This document shows positions 52,538 to 60,359 of a DNA stretch of 64,000 nucleotides, one piece after another (positions within the stretch are counted from its first letter, which is position 1; every line of letters begins with the position of its first letter). Below the pieces are notes generated by a model. The model saw only the letters and a list, made by a program, of their open reading frames with translations. It had not been told where the DNA came from and made no database searches. The stretch is from Nitrospirota bacterium (GTDB lineage: Bacteria; Nitrospirota; Thermodesulfovibrionia; Thermodesulfovibrionales; JdFR-88): NCBI GenBank assembly GCA_021813405.1, contig JAKAKS010000006.1, positions 1-64,000 on the forward strand. The letters run 5' to 3'. The position numbers and the translations under genes were made by a program.

Positions 52538-54520
52538 CTAGCGTATTGTGACGGTTCCGGCCGTACCGGGGGGTGTGCCAGAACCTCCGGTCACGCTTGG
52601 CGTCGGCCCCGTGTTGTAAGTGTTAAGCAGATAGGAATCCATATATACATCCCCGCCGTTGCCGCCGTTTGCCTGGCCGTTTCCACCGTTTGCGGATATA
52701 TTTCCGCTATTGAGAACCGTCTGCCCGGCGATGAAGACGCTTTCCTGGCTCCCCGCGCCGCCTAATTGAAATGGATATACGGTTTGTGCACTTGCGGAAC
52801 CGCCATTGCCGCCCGAACCGGCGTTAAGGTTCATGCTGCCGGTAATGTTGGCGATTGCACCTGAGACATTATTATTGCCATAGGTGCTTAAATTAGCGTT
52901 GTAATACGCGGCAGCCTCGATGTCCACCAACCCGCCGTTTCCGCCGTAATACGAATTGGCGCTTGAGTCTGTTACCGCGCCGCCCTGGTTGCTCACGTCC
53001 GGCTGGAAGGTGATGCTGCCGGCCGGCAGAAGCGCGTCCGTGGTGTAGTCGGTGGGCGAATAGGTATAAAGATATACTCCGCCATTGCCGGCGTTTCCGC
53101 CGCCCGCGTAGCCGTTGCCGGCGTTCATCGCAATCGAACCGGTGGTATAGAAGGCAACGGACGCGCTTGCGTTATAATTTCCGCTCAAATAGCCAATATA
53201 ATTATTAGCTTCAATCTCGATGCCTGAATAATTGGAGTTGGGAGCACTGCTTTCCCCGTTTCCGCCGTTTAAATTAAACTGAGAGTCCACCTGAATAGCT
53301 CCAACTGACGGCACCGGATTGGTTTCGTCATCGCCATCTGAAAAGAACTCCACCTTGGCCGCCTCTCCGCCGTATCCGGTGCCGGTGGAATTTCCGCCAT
53401 TGCCATTTATCGTGGCGTTCACGTATTCCATGCCCTGCGCCCATGTGTGGAAATCAACCAGGCCATGGCCGCCACCGTTTCCGGTCCCGTTGCCGCCGGA
53501 AACGTCTATCAGGCCGCTGGCAAGGATGTCCCCCTGAAGCCCGTTGGAGTTCGCCTGGTCGCAGCCTATCATGTACACGGAGCCGCCCATGCCGCCATTG
53601 CCGTTGCTGCCGTTGCCTCCCCTGGCGTAGAGGTAGCCGGAGTTATATACATTGCCGTAATCGGACGCAAGGGATATCCCTTGATTTCCGGAACCGCCGC
53701 CATCAGCGCTGCCGTCCCCGCCATTTGCCTCTATCGTGCCGGTGTTAACAGTGTAGCTGCTGGCCTCCATGTCCACGTAGCCGCCGTCCTTGCCGGCATC
53801 TCCGTTTGCGTTGAGCGTACCCTGATTTATTACGGTGCCGCCGCCCAGATAGATGCTGTCCCCGGCAGCGCCGGTTCTTGTGCCGTCAACCTCGCCCGAT
53901 GATCCGATCGTGATATTTCCCGTGGCGTTGACCGGCTGTGAGGATGTGCCGGCCTCTATGTCAAAATTGCCTCCGGTTGCCGTCGTGTTCACAAGCCCGT
54001 TTATGGTCAGATCATCGGCAAAAACCGCAACGCAGTTGCCGCCGCTGTTACCGGGCAGGGTAAGCGTGGCCCCCTGGTTAACAACAAGTCCTGTAACAGC
54101 CGTGGCGTTTGTATCTCCGGGGTCGGTAACTGGGGTGTTTGAGTCACCCGCAACGGAGCCCACATATATCTGGTCAGTATTGTCGGCTGAATTCATGAAA
54201 AGCCCGCCCGCCACGGGATTTTGATTAAGCTGGACTATGGTATTGGAGGATATGGTCACCCCATTAGCCCCATAATAGCTGGTGTAGGGAGGCAGGGTAA
54301 AGCTGGCGTCCACCGTCCCGCTGGAATTGATTATTATCGGCGCTCCGTAGGTGTACCCTGCTAACCAGCCCGGGCTGCCGCCAGTACCGGTTGCGCTGTT
54401 GCCGCCGTTCATCGATATTGTATTAGTAGGGGTAGCCGGCTGGGGGGCCTGGCGTCCGGTGCATCCAAAGCCCGAGGCCATCAGGGCCAAAGCCACTATA
54501 AAAAACGCTGCTCTTTTCAT
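52538..54520 (-). CDS. Exported Gly/Asn-rich repeat protein, predicted beta-helix
   Basis: The 660-residue protein (from ATG 54520, with a hydrophobic leader MKRAAFFIVALALMASGFGC, possibly a lipoprotein) contains at least eight imperfect repeats with cores such as ANGGNGQANGGNGGDVYM, ARGGNGSNGNGGMGGSVYM and SGGNGTGNGGGHGLVDF. Each unit ends in a hydrophobic beta strand, as in right-handed beta-helix surface proteins. It should be displayed on the cell surface or secreted. It shares a region with a small helical protein gene (17 bp upstream) and diverges from the DTG lipoprotein gene. Confidence 0.8.
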   Translation of the reverse strand: MKRAAFFIVALALMASGFGCTGRQAPQPATPTNTISMNGGNSATGTGGSPGWLAGYTYGAPIIINSSGTVDASFTLPPYTSYYGANGVTISSNTIVQLNQNPVAGGLFMNSADNTDQIYVGSVAGDSNTPVTDPGDTNATAVTGLVVNQGATLTLPGNSGGNCVAVFADDLTINGLVNTTATGGNFDIEAGTSSQPVNATGNITIGSSGEVDGTRTGAAGDSIYLGGGTVINQGTLNANGDAGKDGGYVDMEASSYTVNTGTIEANGGDGSADGGGSGNQGISLASDYGNVYNSGYLYARGGNGSNGNGGMGGSVYMIGCDQANSNGLQGDILASGLIDVSGGNGTGNGGGHGLVDFHTWAQGMEYVNATINGNGGNSTGTGYGGEAAKVEFFSDGDDETNPVPSVGAIQVDSQFNLNGGNGESSAPNSNYSGIEIEANNYIGYLSGNYNASASVAFYTTGSIAMNAGNGYAGGGNAGNGGVYLYTYSPTDYTTDALLPAGSITFQPDVSNQGGAVTDSSANSYYGGNGGLVDIEAAAYYNANLSTYGNNNVSGAIANITGSMNLNAGSGGNGGSASAQTVYPFQLGGAGSQESVFIAGQTVLNSGNISANGGNGQANGGNGGDVYMDSYLLNTYNTGPTPSVTGGSGTPPGTAGTVTIR

Positions 54521-54536
54521 TTGTATTACCCCTCCC

Positions 54537-54797
54537 CTAATTGCCGCTGGCGGCCTTGCGTGCCGCCAGCCTAGCTTCAATATTCTGCTGCCTGAGAGAC
54601 CTCTCTTGCACCCTGAGCGCCTTTAATTGATTCATCAGGGCCGGGATCTGGGAAGGATTTGCGCGCATCTGGGCCCTAAGGGTTTTTTCCTGTTCATGCA
54701 GCGCCTTGATCTGCGCCGCGTTGCCGCCTGCCGCCATTGCCGCCTGGGCCATCAGAAGCCCGGCAATAAGTACGCCTGAAACTACTGTCTTACGCAT
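54537..54797 (-). CDS. Small exported helical protein
   Basis: From ATG 54797 (preceded by GGAGGC) the protein is 86 residues: a signal peptide (MRKTVVSGVLIAGLLMAQAA, cleavage near AMA-AG), then a charged coiled-coil-like domain (QIKALHEQEKTLRAQMRANPSQ). I do not recognise a family. It lies 17 bp upstream of the Gly/Asn-rich repeat protein gene and is probably co-transcribed, so it may be a periplasmic partner. Confidence 0.72.
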   Translation of the reverse strand: MRKTVVSGVLIAGLLMAQAAMAAGGNAAQIKALHEQEKTLRAQMRANPSQIPALMNQLKALRVQERSLRQQNIEARLAARKAASGN

Positions 54798-54977
54798 GGT
54801 TGCCTCCTCAAAACAAAATTTGCTATCGTCCATCCTTGTGATGTTCTTAAGGAACTTACTTTGCCAAACGCACTTTGTAAAAATCAAGAAAAAAGTGGCC
54901 GGAATCACAAACTTCACATCATCTTTACCAAAACTTAACCACCCCCCTTTTCTCCCTTTCAAAACTGCAACCCGCAT

Positions 54978-55006
54978 TTGATTCATTTCACTGCATCTGT
55001 TAATGT
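54978..55006 (+). promoter_or_regulatory. Predicted promoter of DTG lipoprotein gene
   Basis: TTGATT (54978-54983) and TAATGT (55001-55006) are separated by 17 nt. The ATG at 55016 begins 10 nt after the -10 element and no Shine-Dalgarno is present, predicting a leaderless or nearly leaderless mRNA. Confidence 0.5.
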
Positions 55007-55015
55007 AAGTACCAG

Positions 55016-56737
55016 ATGCGCGCCATTCAGACATCAAGCCGCAATTCCTCAAAAATAATCCAGCTTTTTGCCGCCCTGTCTGTCACTGCCATTCTGGCCG
55101 CATGCGGCGCCGGCGGCGGGGGCGGAAGCAGCAGCGGAGGCCCAGGCGGCGGGGGTGGGTCTACAACCCAATTAACCATTACAGTGGGCAACAACTGGCA
55201 GACCGCCCAGGTGGAGACCGGCAGCGGCACTTTCCTTGCGAAGGCCTTCGGGCTGGTAAAAGACGCCGTAACACCCGACGAAGCGGCGGCGGCCATACCG
55301 TCCAACGTGGCCTCAATCGGTTTTATCATCACCGCTGCCGATATGGCGACAATCTCAACGAATGCGCCTGTTTCCGGCCAGACATCGATAACCGAAACAT
55401 TTAATGTGCCAAACGGCAATTTTAGGGCTGTCCGGGTAAACGCGATGGACGGCAATGGCGATGTGCTTTACACCGGCAATATAACGCTGAACCTGAACGG
55501 CGGCGCCGTAAGCCAGGACGTGGCAATGACAAACGCGCTGTGCTACACGCCCGTGTCCTCCAACCAGATGCCGGTATGCTTTGTAAACGCCACTCAGGAC
55601 GACAGTTTATACATTAACACCCCTTATGTAACGGTATACATCACAAACGCAAGCGGCGTATCCATGCCGTTCAACCTGCTTCTGGACACCGGCGCAACGG
55701 GCGTGCTTATAAACCAGGACGCGCTCCAGGCCGCCGGTGTAAATATAGCCCGGAATAATGGAAGTTTCTGCGGGCAATTTGGGGACAGTTCCATGTTCGG
55801 CGGATATGTGTCTAATGCAACTGTTGCTACGCTGGCGTCCGGCGGGTTGTCCACAAACAGCAGTTATCCGGTGGCCGTTAATCAGGACACAGCTCCCAAT
55901 AATTCCAATTACAGCTGCCCAGGCTTCACCCCCGGCAATGCAGGCTTCCCTTCCGGCGGGTTCCTCCAGGGCGATTTCGGGATGGGACTGTCACCTTCAT
56001 ACACTTTCGGCTATCCCTACACCACGCCGTCATTGCCTGCTTACCTGCCCGGCTATACCGACGGGTTTTTCCTCAGCTTTACGCCGATAACAACTTCAAA
56101 CGGCTCCAGTTACACAGGCAGCGGAACGATAACATACGGGCTGAGCGGCGGCACAACCGGATATTCCTTCTTCCCCAATGACGCAAGGCAATCGCAGGCG
56201 TTCCCGTCGATTGACGCCGAGTTCGGCGGGGTGATCAACGACCCCAGCTACACTCCAACTAATAATAATTATCTCGGGCAGAACTACTTCGCTCTCTTCG
56301 ATACCGGGTCCACCTTCATGTTCATGGGCGGTAACGCCATGTCCAATGCCGTTTCCGGCATGCCCACCATAGATTACTTGTCCAATTACGAGTATAATCA
56401 GGGGCTGTTCGGTACCGGCACGGCTCTTGTAAACGGCGGCTTGTTCATGACCATGGGGCTTTATAACGGTGCGGCCATGGGGATTTCCAACTTGGCCAGC
56501 TACGACCAGGGCGCAAGCTTTACAACCAGCCCTAATACAGGAAATTACCAGTTCTCAGGCAGTCTCTTTGGAACGCCACCCAACAACGGGTATATCCTGT
56601 TCAAAGACACCATCCTGGATTGGGACCCGATGTACGGTGTGGAGGACATGGGGATGTCTTACTTCTTTAACCACTCAATGTACTGGGCCAGCGATACATC
56701 AGCAAACGGCTGGGGCGTTGGGATGCAATTACCATGA
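55016..56737 (+). CDS. Lipoprotein with two DTG motifs, bilobal aspartic-protease-like
   Basis: The 573-residue protein has a lipobox (TAILAAC, Cys30), a Gly/Ser-rich linker (about 31-50) and two Asp-Thr-Gly motifs: NLLLDTGATGVLI (DTG 224-226) and ALFDTGSTFMFMGG (DTG 429-431), about 205 residues apart. Such paired DTG motifs are the active-site pattern of pepsin-like proteases; the region also resembles DUF3443-type proteins. It would be anchored on the outer side of a membrane. Proteolytic activity is not shown. The start overlaps nothing; the end overlaps the next small gene (ATGA). Confidence 0.85.
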   Translation: MRAIQTSSRNSSKIIQLFAALSVTAILAACGAGGGGGSSSGGPGGGGGSTTQLTITVGNNWQTAQVETGSGTFLAKAFGLVKDAVTPDEAAAAIPSNVASIGFIITAADMATISTNAPVSGQTSITETFNVPNGNFRAVRVNAMDGNGDVLYTGNITLNLNGGAVSQDVAMTNALCYTPVSSNQMPVCFVNATQDDSLYINTPYVTVYITNASGVSMPFNLLLDTGATGVLINQDALQAAGVNIARNNGSFCGQFGDSSMFGGYVSNATVATLASGGLSTNSSYPVAVNQDTAPNNSNYSCPGFTPGNAGFPSGGFLQGDFGMGLSPSYTFGYPYTTPSLPAYLPGYTDGFFLSFTPITTSNGSSYTGSGTITYGLSGGTTGYSFFPNDARQSQAFPSIDAEFGGVINDPSYTPTNNNYLGQNYFALFDTGSTFMFMGGNAMSNAVSGMPTIDYLSNYEYNQGLFGTGTALVNGGLFMTMGLYNGAAMGISNLASYDQGASFTTSPNTGNYQFSGSLFGTPPNNGYILFKDTILDWDPMYGVEDMGMSYFFNHSMYWASDTSANGWGVGMQLP

Positions 56738-57189
56738 AAAAGATATTGGCCGTTTCCATATTCTGCATACTTTTTGCCGCGCAAAGCTCCTTTGCGGCTG
56801 TGGGCGAAACATATAACCAGATGGCGCAGAGGTACGGCGCGCCCGGGCAGGTTTCCATAAAATTGGTGGCCGGCGCAAAGGACGCGGCTAGGTACACTGC
56901 CGCCGGAGCGAAGGGCTACAGCTTCAATATCAACAATTTAAAAATTTACGCGCTGTTCAATGCAAGCAACGTCTGCTTCAAAATGCTGGCCTTGCACAAC
57001 AGAATGCTGCCGGAAACTTCCGTTCTGGTAGGCCCGGCCGCAAACACCGCCCCGAAGGTGCTGCTCCGGATCCCAAGAAGGGCCATAGTGCTGCAATACG
57101 GCAGCGGGGCAAATGCGATTATATACAGGAGCTTCGGCCTGCCCGGCAACCTGAGCGCGGAGGCCACCAACAAGTCGCTGGAACCCTGA
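56734..57189 (+). CDS. Small secreted protein coupled to the DTG lipoprotein
   Basis: The 151-residue protein has a signal peptide (MKKILAVSIFCILFAAQSSF, cleavage near AFA-AV) and a mature part of about 130 residues (QMAQRYGAPGQVSIKLVAGA, ending with GLPGNLSAEATNKSLEP). Its ATG overlaps the stop of the DTG lipoprotein gene (ATGA), so translation is coupled. It has no recognised family; it could be a substrate, inhibitor or chaperone of the protease-like protein. Confidence 0.75.
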   Translation: MKKILAVSIFCILFAAQSSFAAVGETYNQMAQRYGAPGQVSIKLVAGAKDAARYTAAGAKGYSFNINNLKIYALFNASNVCFKMLALHNRMLPETSVLVGPAANTAPKVLLRIPRRAIVLQYGSGANAIIYRSFGLPGNLSAEATNKSLEP

Positions 57190-57250: not shown

Positions 57251-57886
57251 ATGAAAGACATGAAGCTTAATACTTTCGAAAGGTTTATCACCAATAGCGC
57301 GGTAAGGGGTTTCATGCAAAAGCGCGTGGAGGCCCCGCGCCTTAAAAAGTTCGCGCTAAAATCCGGATATCCATACTGCCTGGAGATTGGCGGCGGCACC
57401 GGCAGGGGCGGCGAGCTGATAATAGACGTTTTCGGCGCGGAAAAGGTGATTGTTACAGACATAGACCCGGCCCAGGCTGCCAAATCCAGGCAAAGGACAA
57501 GCAGGCTGGTGGCCGCCAGGCCGGAGTTAAAGGACAGGATAGATGTAAAGGTGGAAGACGCGATGGCCCTTTCGTTTGAGGACAACAGCTTCGACGCCGT
57601 CTTCGCCTTTGGCGTGATACACCACATGGAGGACTGGCGCAAGGCCATCCGCGAGATAAAACGGGTGCTGCGGCCAGGCGGCGAGTTTTTTTTCGATGAA
57701 CTGCTTGCCGGATTCCTCACCTCGTTTCCCACGCATATGCTTACCCGCCACCCCGAGGGCGGTATGTTTACAAAGGGCGATTTCCTTGGATACCTGATGG
57801 AAACAGGCATCCCCGCCGCCGGGTATAAGAGCATGGACGGCATCTGGATAACCGGCAACGCAGTTAAAAATGGCCGCGCGCAATAA
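57251..57886 (+). CDS. Class I SAM-dependent methyltransferase
   Basis: The protein (211 residues) is a Methyltransf_11-type domain: [20 protein letters not shown] (SAM motif I), [26 protein letters not shown] and [17 protein letters not shown]. Substrate is unknown. A TATAAT (57244-57249) lies one base before the first ATG; the second ATG at 57260, 10 nt past the -10, could be the true leaderless start. The 3' end overlaps the copper ATPase gene by 17 bp. Confidence 0.88.
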
Positions 57887-60359
57887 AGTGGACGGGAAGG
57901 CAAAGTATAAAAAAATAGAGGTCCCCGTAACGGGGATGACGTGCGCGGCGTGCTCTGCAAGGGTCCAGTCCGGCCTCTCCGGAATGGAGGGCATAAAATT
58001 CGTAAACGTGAACCTGGCCTCGGAGCGGGCCAGTGTTGATTTCAACCCTGAAATAACCTCCCCGGAAGCCATCATAAAAAAAATAGAAGACATTGGCTAT
58101 GGGGCAACCGTGGCCAAACAGACCATCCCGGTTACCGGCATGACGTGCGCGGCCTGTTCCGCCAGGGTGCAAAGGGAACTGGCCGGTGTGGATGGGGTGC
58201 TGAAGGCGGATGTAAATCTGGCAACGGAAAGCGCCACGGTGGAATACCTGCCAACCCAGGCCGGCTTCCGTGAACTGCGGGAGGCCATCAGGCGGGCCGG
58301 TTACGATGTACTAAAAACGCAACCGGGCGAGGATATTGTGGAGCGCGAACAGCGCGAGCGCGAGGCAAGATACCTTGCGCTTAAAAGAAAGGTTGTCACC
58401 GGGGCCGCGCTCTCAGTGCCGATATTCATACTTATGTACTCGCGCTTCCTGGGGCTGTTTGCAGGCCTGCCGCTGCGCGTAAATTTCATAATGCAGATGG
58501 CCCTTGCCACCCCCATCCAGTTCTGGATTGGCAGGCAGTTCTATTCCGGGGCGGTCTCCGCGGCCAGGCACCGCACCACAAACATGAACACGCTGATAGC
58601 CGTGGGGACGTCGGCGGCATACATATACAGCGCCATAGTGGTCTTCTTCCCGTCTTTCTTCATAGTGAAAGGCCTTATGCCCGCCGCTCACTTGGATGTT
58701 TACTTTGACACATCGGCGGCGATAATCGTTCTTATTCTCTTGGGAAGAACGCTTGAGGCCAGGGCGCGCGGCAAAACTTCCGATGCGGTAAAAAAACTGA
58801 TAGGGCTTGCCCCCAAGTCTGCCCGCGTTGTGCGAAACGGCGCGGAAACAGAAGTGCCGGTAGCCGACGTTGAGCCCGGTGACGTAATCTCCGTGAGGCC
58901 GGGGGAAAAGATACCTGCGGACGGCATAGTAACGGAGGGCTACTCTTCCGTTGACGAGTCCATGATAACCGGCGAGCCCATCCCGGTTGAAAAGCGGCCC
59001 GGCGGCAGCGTAACCGGGGGCGCTATCAACAAGACCGGCTCGTTTAAATTCGAGGCCGTAAAAGTGGGCAGGAACACCGTGCTGGCCGGCATCATAGAAA
59101 TGGTGCAACGAGCGCAAGGCTCCAAGCCCCCAATAGCCAGGCTGGCAGACACCATCTCGTCTTTCTTCGTGCCCGCCGTGATGGGGCTGGCCGCGCTCAC
59201 GTTTATAATCTGGTACGCCTTTGGGCCTCCGCCCGCCTTTACCTACGCGCTTCTTAATTTCATATCCGTGCTGATAATAGCCTGCCCGTGCGCCCTGGGG
59301 CTTGCAACCCCCACGTCCATTATGGTGGGCACCGGCAAGGGGGCCGAAAGCGGCATCCTCATCAGAAGCGGCGAGGCGCTTGAGGCCGCCCACAAGCTAA
59401 ATTGCATAGTGCTGGACAAAACCGGCACCGTCACACGCGGGGAACCGTCCGTAACGGACATAATCACCAACAATTCGATAACAGAGGATCAGGCGCTATA
59501 CTACGCCGCTTCGGCTGAAAAAACATCCGAGCATCCGCTGGCCGGGGCCTTCCTGAAAGCAGCGCGGGAATCCGGCATCAAACTGGGGGAGACCAGGCAG
59601 TTCCAGGCCATTGCCGGCCATGGCATAAAAGGCAGCGTTGATGGCAGGGAACTGCTGCTTGGCAATTTAAGGATGATGACGGACGAGGGCATAGACACGG
59701 GCCAGCTGGCCCCGGCTGCGGAAGGGCTTTCAAACGAGGGCAAAACACCGGTGTTTCTTGCCCTGGATAAAAAACCCGCCGCCGTGCTGGCCGTTGCCGA
59801 TACCCTGAAGGAGAATTCAAGAGAGGCCATAAAGGCGCTCAGGGACATGGGGCTGGAGGTAATCATCCTCACCGGAGACAACAAAAGGCCGGCCCAGGCC
59901 ATTGCCAGGCAGGCCGGGGCCGACAACGTTATCGCCGAGGTGCTGCCGGACCAGAAGGCCGAAGTTATAAAAAAGCTCCAGTCCGAAGGCAAAAAAGTGG
60001 GAATGGCTGGTGACGGCATAAACGATGCCCCTGCGCTTGCGCAGGCGGATGTTGGCATAGCCATGGGCACCGGAACGGACGTGGCGATAGAGGCCGCGGA
60101 TATTACGCTGATGGCCGGAGACTTAAGAGGCGTTGTGCGCGCAATCGCCCTTTCAAAGGCAACGCTTAAAAACATAAAGCAGAACCTATTCTGGGCCTTC
60201 GCGTACAACACAATTCTTATACCAGTTGCTGCCGGGGCGCTCTATCCTTTTTTTGGCACACTTTTAAGCCCGGTATATGCAGCGGCGGCCATGGGGATGT
60301 CCTCGGTTACAGTGGTAAGCAACGCACTAAGGCTCAGGAAATTCGCCCCTCCGGTTTAA
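57870..60359 (+). CDS. copA: Copper-translocating P1B-type ATPase
   Basis: The 829-residue pump has two N-terminal heavy-metal-associated domains ([15 protein letters not shown] and [15 protein letters not shown]), eight membrane helices, the intramembrane [10 protein letters not shown], phosphorylation motif [23 protein letters not shown] and [12 protein letters not shown]. The CPC motif and HMA pair fit Cu(I) export. No copper-responsive regulator (CueR, CsoR) is seen nearby. The start overlaps the methyltransferase end. Confidence 0.95.

Follow-up and report, generated by a model that had tools for sequence, protein, structure and literature searches.

A divergent DUF3443-related lipoprotein with paired pepsin-like motifs and a small secreted partner encoded beside it in several bacterial lineages

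Results and Discussion

Two divergent gene pairs encode four exported proteins

The window (the whole 64,000-nucleotide stretch of DNA that was analysed) comes from a Nitrospirota genome of 2.9 Mb. A sequence-only reading had described four open reading frames at 52538-57189, and we find all of them at those positions, all encoding exported proteins and arranged as two divergent gene pairs. On the forward strand, the first gene (55016..56737) encodes an exported lipoprotein of 573 aa with the lipobox LAAC and the motifs D224-T-G and D429-T-G; it resembles bilobal aspartic proteases and is a relative of DUF3443. The second gene (56734..57189, also forward) encodes a small secreted protein of 151 aa, a probable remote relative of DUF2844, and its start overlaps the stop of the protease gene by 4 nt. 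On the reverse strand lie a gene for a Gly/Asn-rich repeat lipoprotein (52538..54520; 660 aa from its ATG, Gly 20%, Asn 11%, with a lipoprotein-like start) and, upstream of it, a gene for a helical exported protein of 86 aa with a cleavable-type signal peptide (54537..54797). The nearest public record for the protease-like lipoprotein is from a Nitrospirae MAG (86% identity). Downstream of the block, at 57870-60359, is an ordinary copper-type P-ATPase gene with two heavy-metal-binding domains that overlaps a methyltransferase gene.

The protease-like lipoprotein also has an N-terminal accessory domain at about residues 72-176 (55229..55543, forward strand), which has separate matches in many Nitrospirota genomes, confined to about residues 84-180. 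This domain is common to unrelated Nitrospirota lipoproteins and has been gained or lost between paralogues: it is absent from the paralogue, being missing in L019 and L030.

The lipoprotein aligns with DUF3443 proteins and with fungal pepsins

The two DTG motifs had been reported as 205 residues apart, and residues 224 and 429 are separated by exactly that distance. The motifs are not chance occurrences, because 19 diverse relatives all keep D224, T225, D429 and G431 and because, in a Pfam search, Asp_protease_2 (PF13650) covers the first motif and lobe at 1.7e-5, over its cut-off. Across the same 19-sequence alignment G229, G263, G319, G322 and G546 are also invariant. In a six-frame search the window scores 30.3 bits against the DUF3443 model (PF11925), over the cut-off of 25, and the model also matches family members L035 (1.3e-10) and L019 (8e-7); with the whole lipoprotein as hmmscan query, PF11925 is absent from the matches. 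The match is partial, spanning model positions 3-127 in the window protein and 196-277 in the paralogue, compared with 2-367 in canonical members. When a profile of nine relatives is aligned with Burkholderia DUF3443 proteins (hhalign), E is 1.7e-17 and both D-[TS]-G motifs are in register. Judged by these alignments, the lipoprotein belongs with the uncharacterised DUF3443 family as a divergent relative. The likeness extends to a Gly/Ser-rich lipoprotein N-terminus, a GILG-type loop, a C-terminal D-x-G-[LM]-P-F-F motif and an adjacent gene for a small secreted partner. The window protein differs in matching part of the DUF3443 model only and in having its partner downstream and undetected by the DUF2844 model.

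A PDB search with the combined family profile matches rhizopuspepsins (E 1.5e-5 to 4e-5) and aspergillopepsin (2e-4). The aspergillopepsin alignment runs unbroken through the first DTG, the flap "YGDGSSASG", the glycine of the "GLLG" loop and the second DTG, with both aspartates collinear. Consistent with this relationship, the pepsin model PF00026 matches relative L092 over its cut-off (3.7e-6), the window protein being unmatched. At the position of the pepsin flap Tyr75, the alignment has Phe255 in window-type members and Tyr in L092. The psi-loop glycines G322 (GDFGMG, or GILG in relatives) and G546 are invariant, and hydrophobicity in the residues preceding G546 is only partial. In some DUF3443 relatives DTG is replaced by DTA. 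We recognise no propeptide. An AF2 model of the protease built from a 9-sequence alignment is poor, with a pLDDT of 31.8. It is the motif alignment, with DUF3443 on one side and fungal pepsins on the other, that makes a bilobal pepsin-like fold well supported as a prediction, and the earlier proposal of a bilobal pepsin-like site agrees with the collinearity of both putative catalytic motifs in these two comparisons. We reject a single-lobe retropepsin acting as a homodimer (family A2, PF13650-type), given the two invariant D-[TS]-G motifs in one chain.

The small secreted protein is a conserved neighbour of the protease

Of the 14 testable loci of window-type proteases, which span two phyla, 12 have an adjoining partner gene, in varying order and orientation; a locus cut by a contig end (G399) was left out of this count. 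In Nitrospirota the partner lies beside every window-type protease found (the window, its paralogue on contig C24, both copies in G234, and G118). In the second phylum it is adjacent at 7 of 9 testable loci, those without it being in G424 and G417; the pairs in G400 and on contig 67 of G398 are divergent rather than tandem. These second-phylum loci are not all independent, since the locus in G408 and one of those in G398 look almost the same. Comparing the distance matrices of protease and partner across 11 pairs gives r = 0.91, a value reached in 0 of 5000 permutations, which partly reflects shared ancestry; paralogous pairs inside one genome match too. Given the adjacency at 12 of 14 loci, the varying order and orientation, and the co-divergence, we regard protease and partner as a functional unit. 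The coupled secreted protein of the sequence-only reading is thus a conserved partner of the protease.

The partner's C-terminus is highly conserved (G-x-P-G-[DN]...L-x-P). Its AF2 model is of alpha/beta type with a pLDDT of 85.9. A Foldseek search with this model gives no significant match (best E 0.05, prob 0.60), PepSY-like DUF2874 and BLIP-like folds being among the matches, and because these are non-significant we claim no inhibitor fold for the partner.

Partner paralogues that lack a protease occur directly upstream of prepilin-type genes in the second phylum (L093, L094, L132, L133, L134, L145 and L146), which may point to a connection with type IV pili or pseudopili. Because these protease-less paralogues adjoin pilin genes, the partner may have another role. 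In the second phylum the pair is also flanked by type II secretion genes, with a weak GspM-like match at L031:4895-5509 and a strong GspE match at L033:4870-5295.

The pair resembles that of DUF3443 and DUF2844

We searched 396 Nitrospirota genomes with HMMs and find DUF3443 in 39 and DUF2844 in 36. All but one of the 37 Nitrospirota DUF2844 genes (36/37) have a DUF3443 gene on their own strand less than 0.7 kb away; DUF2844 is the upstream gene in 32 cases and the downstream one in 4. By HMM search, DUF2844 is present at the DUF3443 loci L103, L105, L106 and L108. On Burkholderiales plasmid records, DUF2844 lies just upstream of DUF3443 in 3 of 5; these records were reached with a DUF3443-like bait sequence, and a tblastn search of the paralogue against plasmids returned nothing useful. 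The canonical pair is carried, for example, by plasmid pBN2 of the environmental strain Paraburkholderia aromaticivorans BN5. The window's genus has DUF3443-type proteins and lacks DUF2844, and the window-type partner stands in its place. In one genome, the DUF3443 gene beside an intact DUF2844 gene carries an in-frame TAA (G144:C35:12450-13655).

The DUF2844 HMM (PF11005) has no match in members of the partner family or in G000. Profile comparison by hhalign aligns the partner with DUF2844 at E 2e-5 (13 and 7 sequences), whereas with 3 sequences only the alignment is not significant (E 0.06); significance comes with the deeper alignments. For the mature parts, E is 3.2e-4 with none of 200 shuffles as good, and a second comparison gives 1.3e-4 and a score of 32.0, against 16.7 for the best of 100 shuffles. 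With moderate confidence, we take the partner to be a diverged, remote relative of DUF2844. Both are small secreted proteins encoded beside a DUF3443-type gene, and their C-terminal halves align; the window partner differs in falling below Pfam detection and in having an invariant Cys81 and a G-x-P-G...L-x-P tail.

The repeat and helical genes recur beside the pair in two genera

The repeat protein has no Pfam, NCBIfam or PDB match, and its earlier label of "beta-helix" is a guess from composition. The repeat and helical genes adjoin the pair in the same order in one locus of the same genus (L029) and one of another genus (L030), two genera in all. In L030 the flanking genes differ from those of the window and identity is 45-55%, the helical protein having a 49% identical counterpart at the same position; the repeat gene is there split into two reading frames (L030:5266-7136), either an assembly error or a decayed gene. 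Neither gene lies beside the second protease pair of the same genome, and neither is seen beside second-phylum pairs as far as the contigs reach. Relatives of the repeat lipoprotein occur with no protease or helical gene next to them in G109, G068, G284, G048 and G118:C27, and we reject the repeat protein as an obligatory component on this ground. A four-gene cassette in the window's lineage is weakly supported.

Two other observations concern the surroundings of these genes. Repeat-lipoprotein relatives at L189:1-658 and L190:58-2940 lie beside genes that, judged by eye, are type II secretion-like (secretin, GspC-like). The paralogous pair of the same genome is followed by a gene for a secreted protein of about 445 aa (L096:7752-9089), conserved in L097, which has no Pfam match and is possibly an outer-membrane barrel.

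A proposed protease-partner system and its alternatives

The bilobal motif architecture, the export signals, the near-obligate pairing in variable order and the co-divergence can be read from the sequences themselves. We consider it probable that the first forward gene (55016..56737) codes for a two-lobed aspartic protease of the DUF3443/pepsin type, exported and lipid-anchored, and the second for its dedicated secreted partner of the DUF2844 type, likely a regulator. Each lobe would give one D-T-G aspartate (D224, D429) to a single active site, and the predicted protease would act on proteins at the cell surface or in the periplasm. Its partner, made by translational coupling, most likely binds and controls the protease in trans, either as an inhibitor or as a folding factor; we propose a dedicated regulator acting in trans because the protease has no recognisable propeptide and because the partner is kept adjoining whatever the gene order. 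The repeat lipoprotein and the helical protein would form an accessory cassette that two genera keep, perhaps serving there as a local substrate or scaffold. More tentatively, and as a possibility that we would not yet call probable, DUF3443+DUF2844 pairs and window-type pairs together may be widespread, undescribed, exported bacterial pepsins without a propeptide, each under the control of its own secreted inhibitor or chaperone from the neighbouring gene.

The main rival to this proposal casts the partner as the principal substrate or as a structural element, such as a subunit of a fibre that resembles a type IV pilus or a type II secretion structure and is trimmed by the protease. This rival owes its standing to the separate partner-paralogue subfamily that heads minor-prepilin operons in the second phylum (G401, G402, G404, G405, G406), and it would fit the highly conserved C-terminus of the partner as well as the L033 locus, where the partner gene shares 4 nt with a prepilin gene and the pair adjoins a T2SS ATPase gene. 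However, the prepilin-linked paralogues form a subfamily of their own, the order with pili is not kept in Nitrospirota or Burkholderiales, and we noticed no pilin-like genes beside the pairs in the window genome. We consider this reading unlikely. It is improbable that the lipoprotein is instead a non-catalytic binding protein with a bilobal pepsin fold: such a role could account for the Phe at the flap Tyr75 position and for the DTA variants among DUF3443 members, but both aspartates are invariant in 19 of 19 aligned members, which would be unexpected for a pseudo-enzyme.

The sequence-only reading had joined all four genes into a single system, in which a protease of the block processes a surface repeat protein that has a helical partner. 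That a second genus has this four-gene order again, between other flanking genes and at 45-55% identity, speaks weakly for this idea. As the defining idea it is not supported, given a second pair in the same genome with no repeat protein, second-phylum pairs with none seen beside them as far as the contigs reach, and repeat relatives in five places with no adjoining protease. We judge a single four-gene system quite improbable and retain a surface structure with a processing protease of its own as a lineage-specific possibility only.

Returning to the protease with its dedicated partner, the proposal would make two orphan families into one testable enzyme-partner system, in which it can be asked whether the partner restrains or folds the protease. 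The system is present in Burkholderiales, in Nitrospirota and in a third phylum of MAGs. In the literature that we searched, with subscription papers thinly covered, no paper names DUF3443 or DUF2844. The recurrence of the pairing across many bacteria under two "unknown function" names suggests a widespread protease system, undescribed as far as this literature goes.

Bacterial pepsin homologues have previously been described as rare, limited to seven species and devoid of signal peptides (PMC2761423), and the one that has been localised, shewasin D, is mainly cytoplasmic (PMC4814920); the exported family contrasts with both descriptions. The window protein shares with peptidase family A1 (pepsin), including the bacterial shewasins, two lobes, two D-T/S-G motifs, a flap and a psi-loop glycine. 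Unlike these pepsins, it has a partner gene, is exported as a lipoprotein and carries Phe at the Tyr75 position; being exported lipoproteins with a near-obligate partner sets the family apart from the bacterial pepsins described. Another parallel is Rlo of Pseudomonas aeruginosa, a secreted retropepsin-like protein that is likewise an exported bacterial aspartic protease encoded with accessory genes (PMC12239564). Rlo differs in being retropepsin-like and in having as operon partners a transglutaminase-like membrane protein and an ATP-grasp protein, with no small DUF2844-like protein (PMC12239564).
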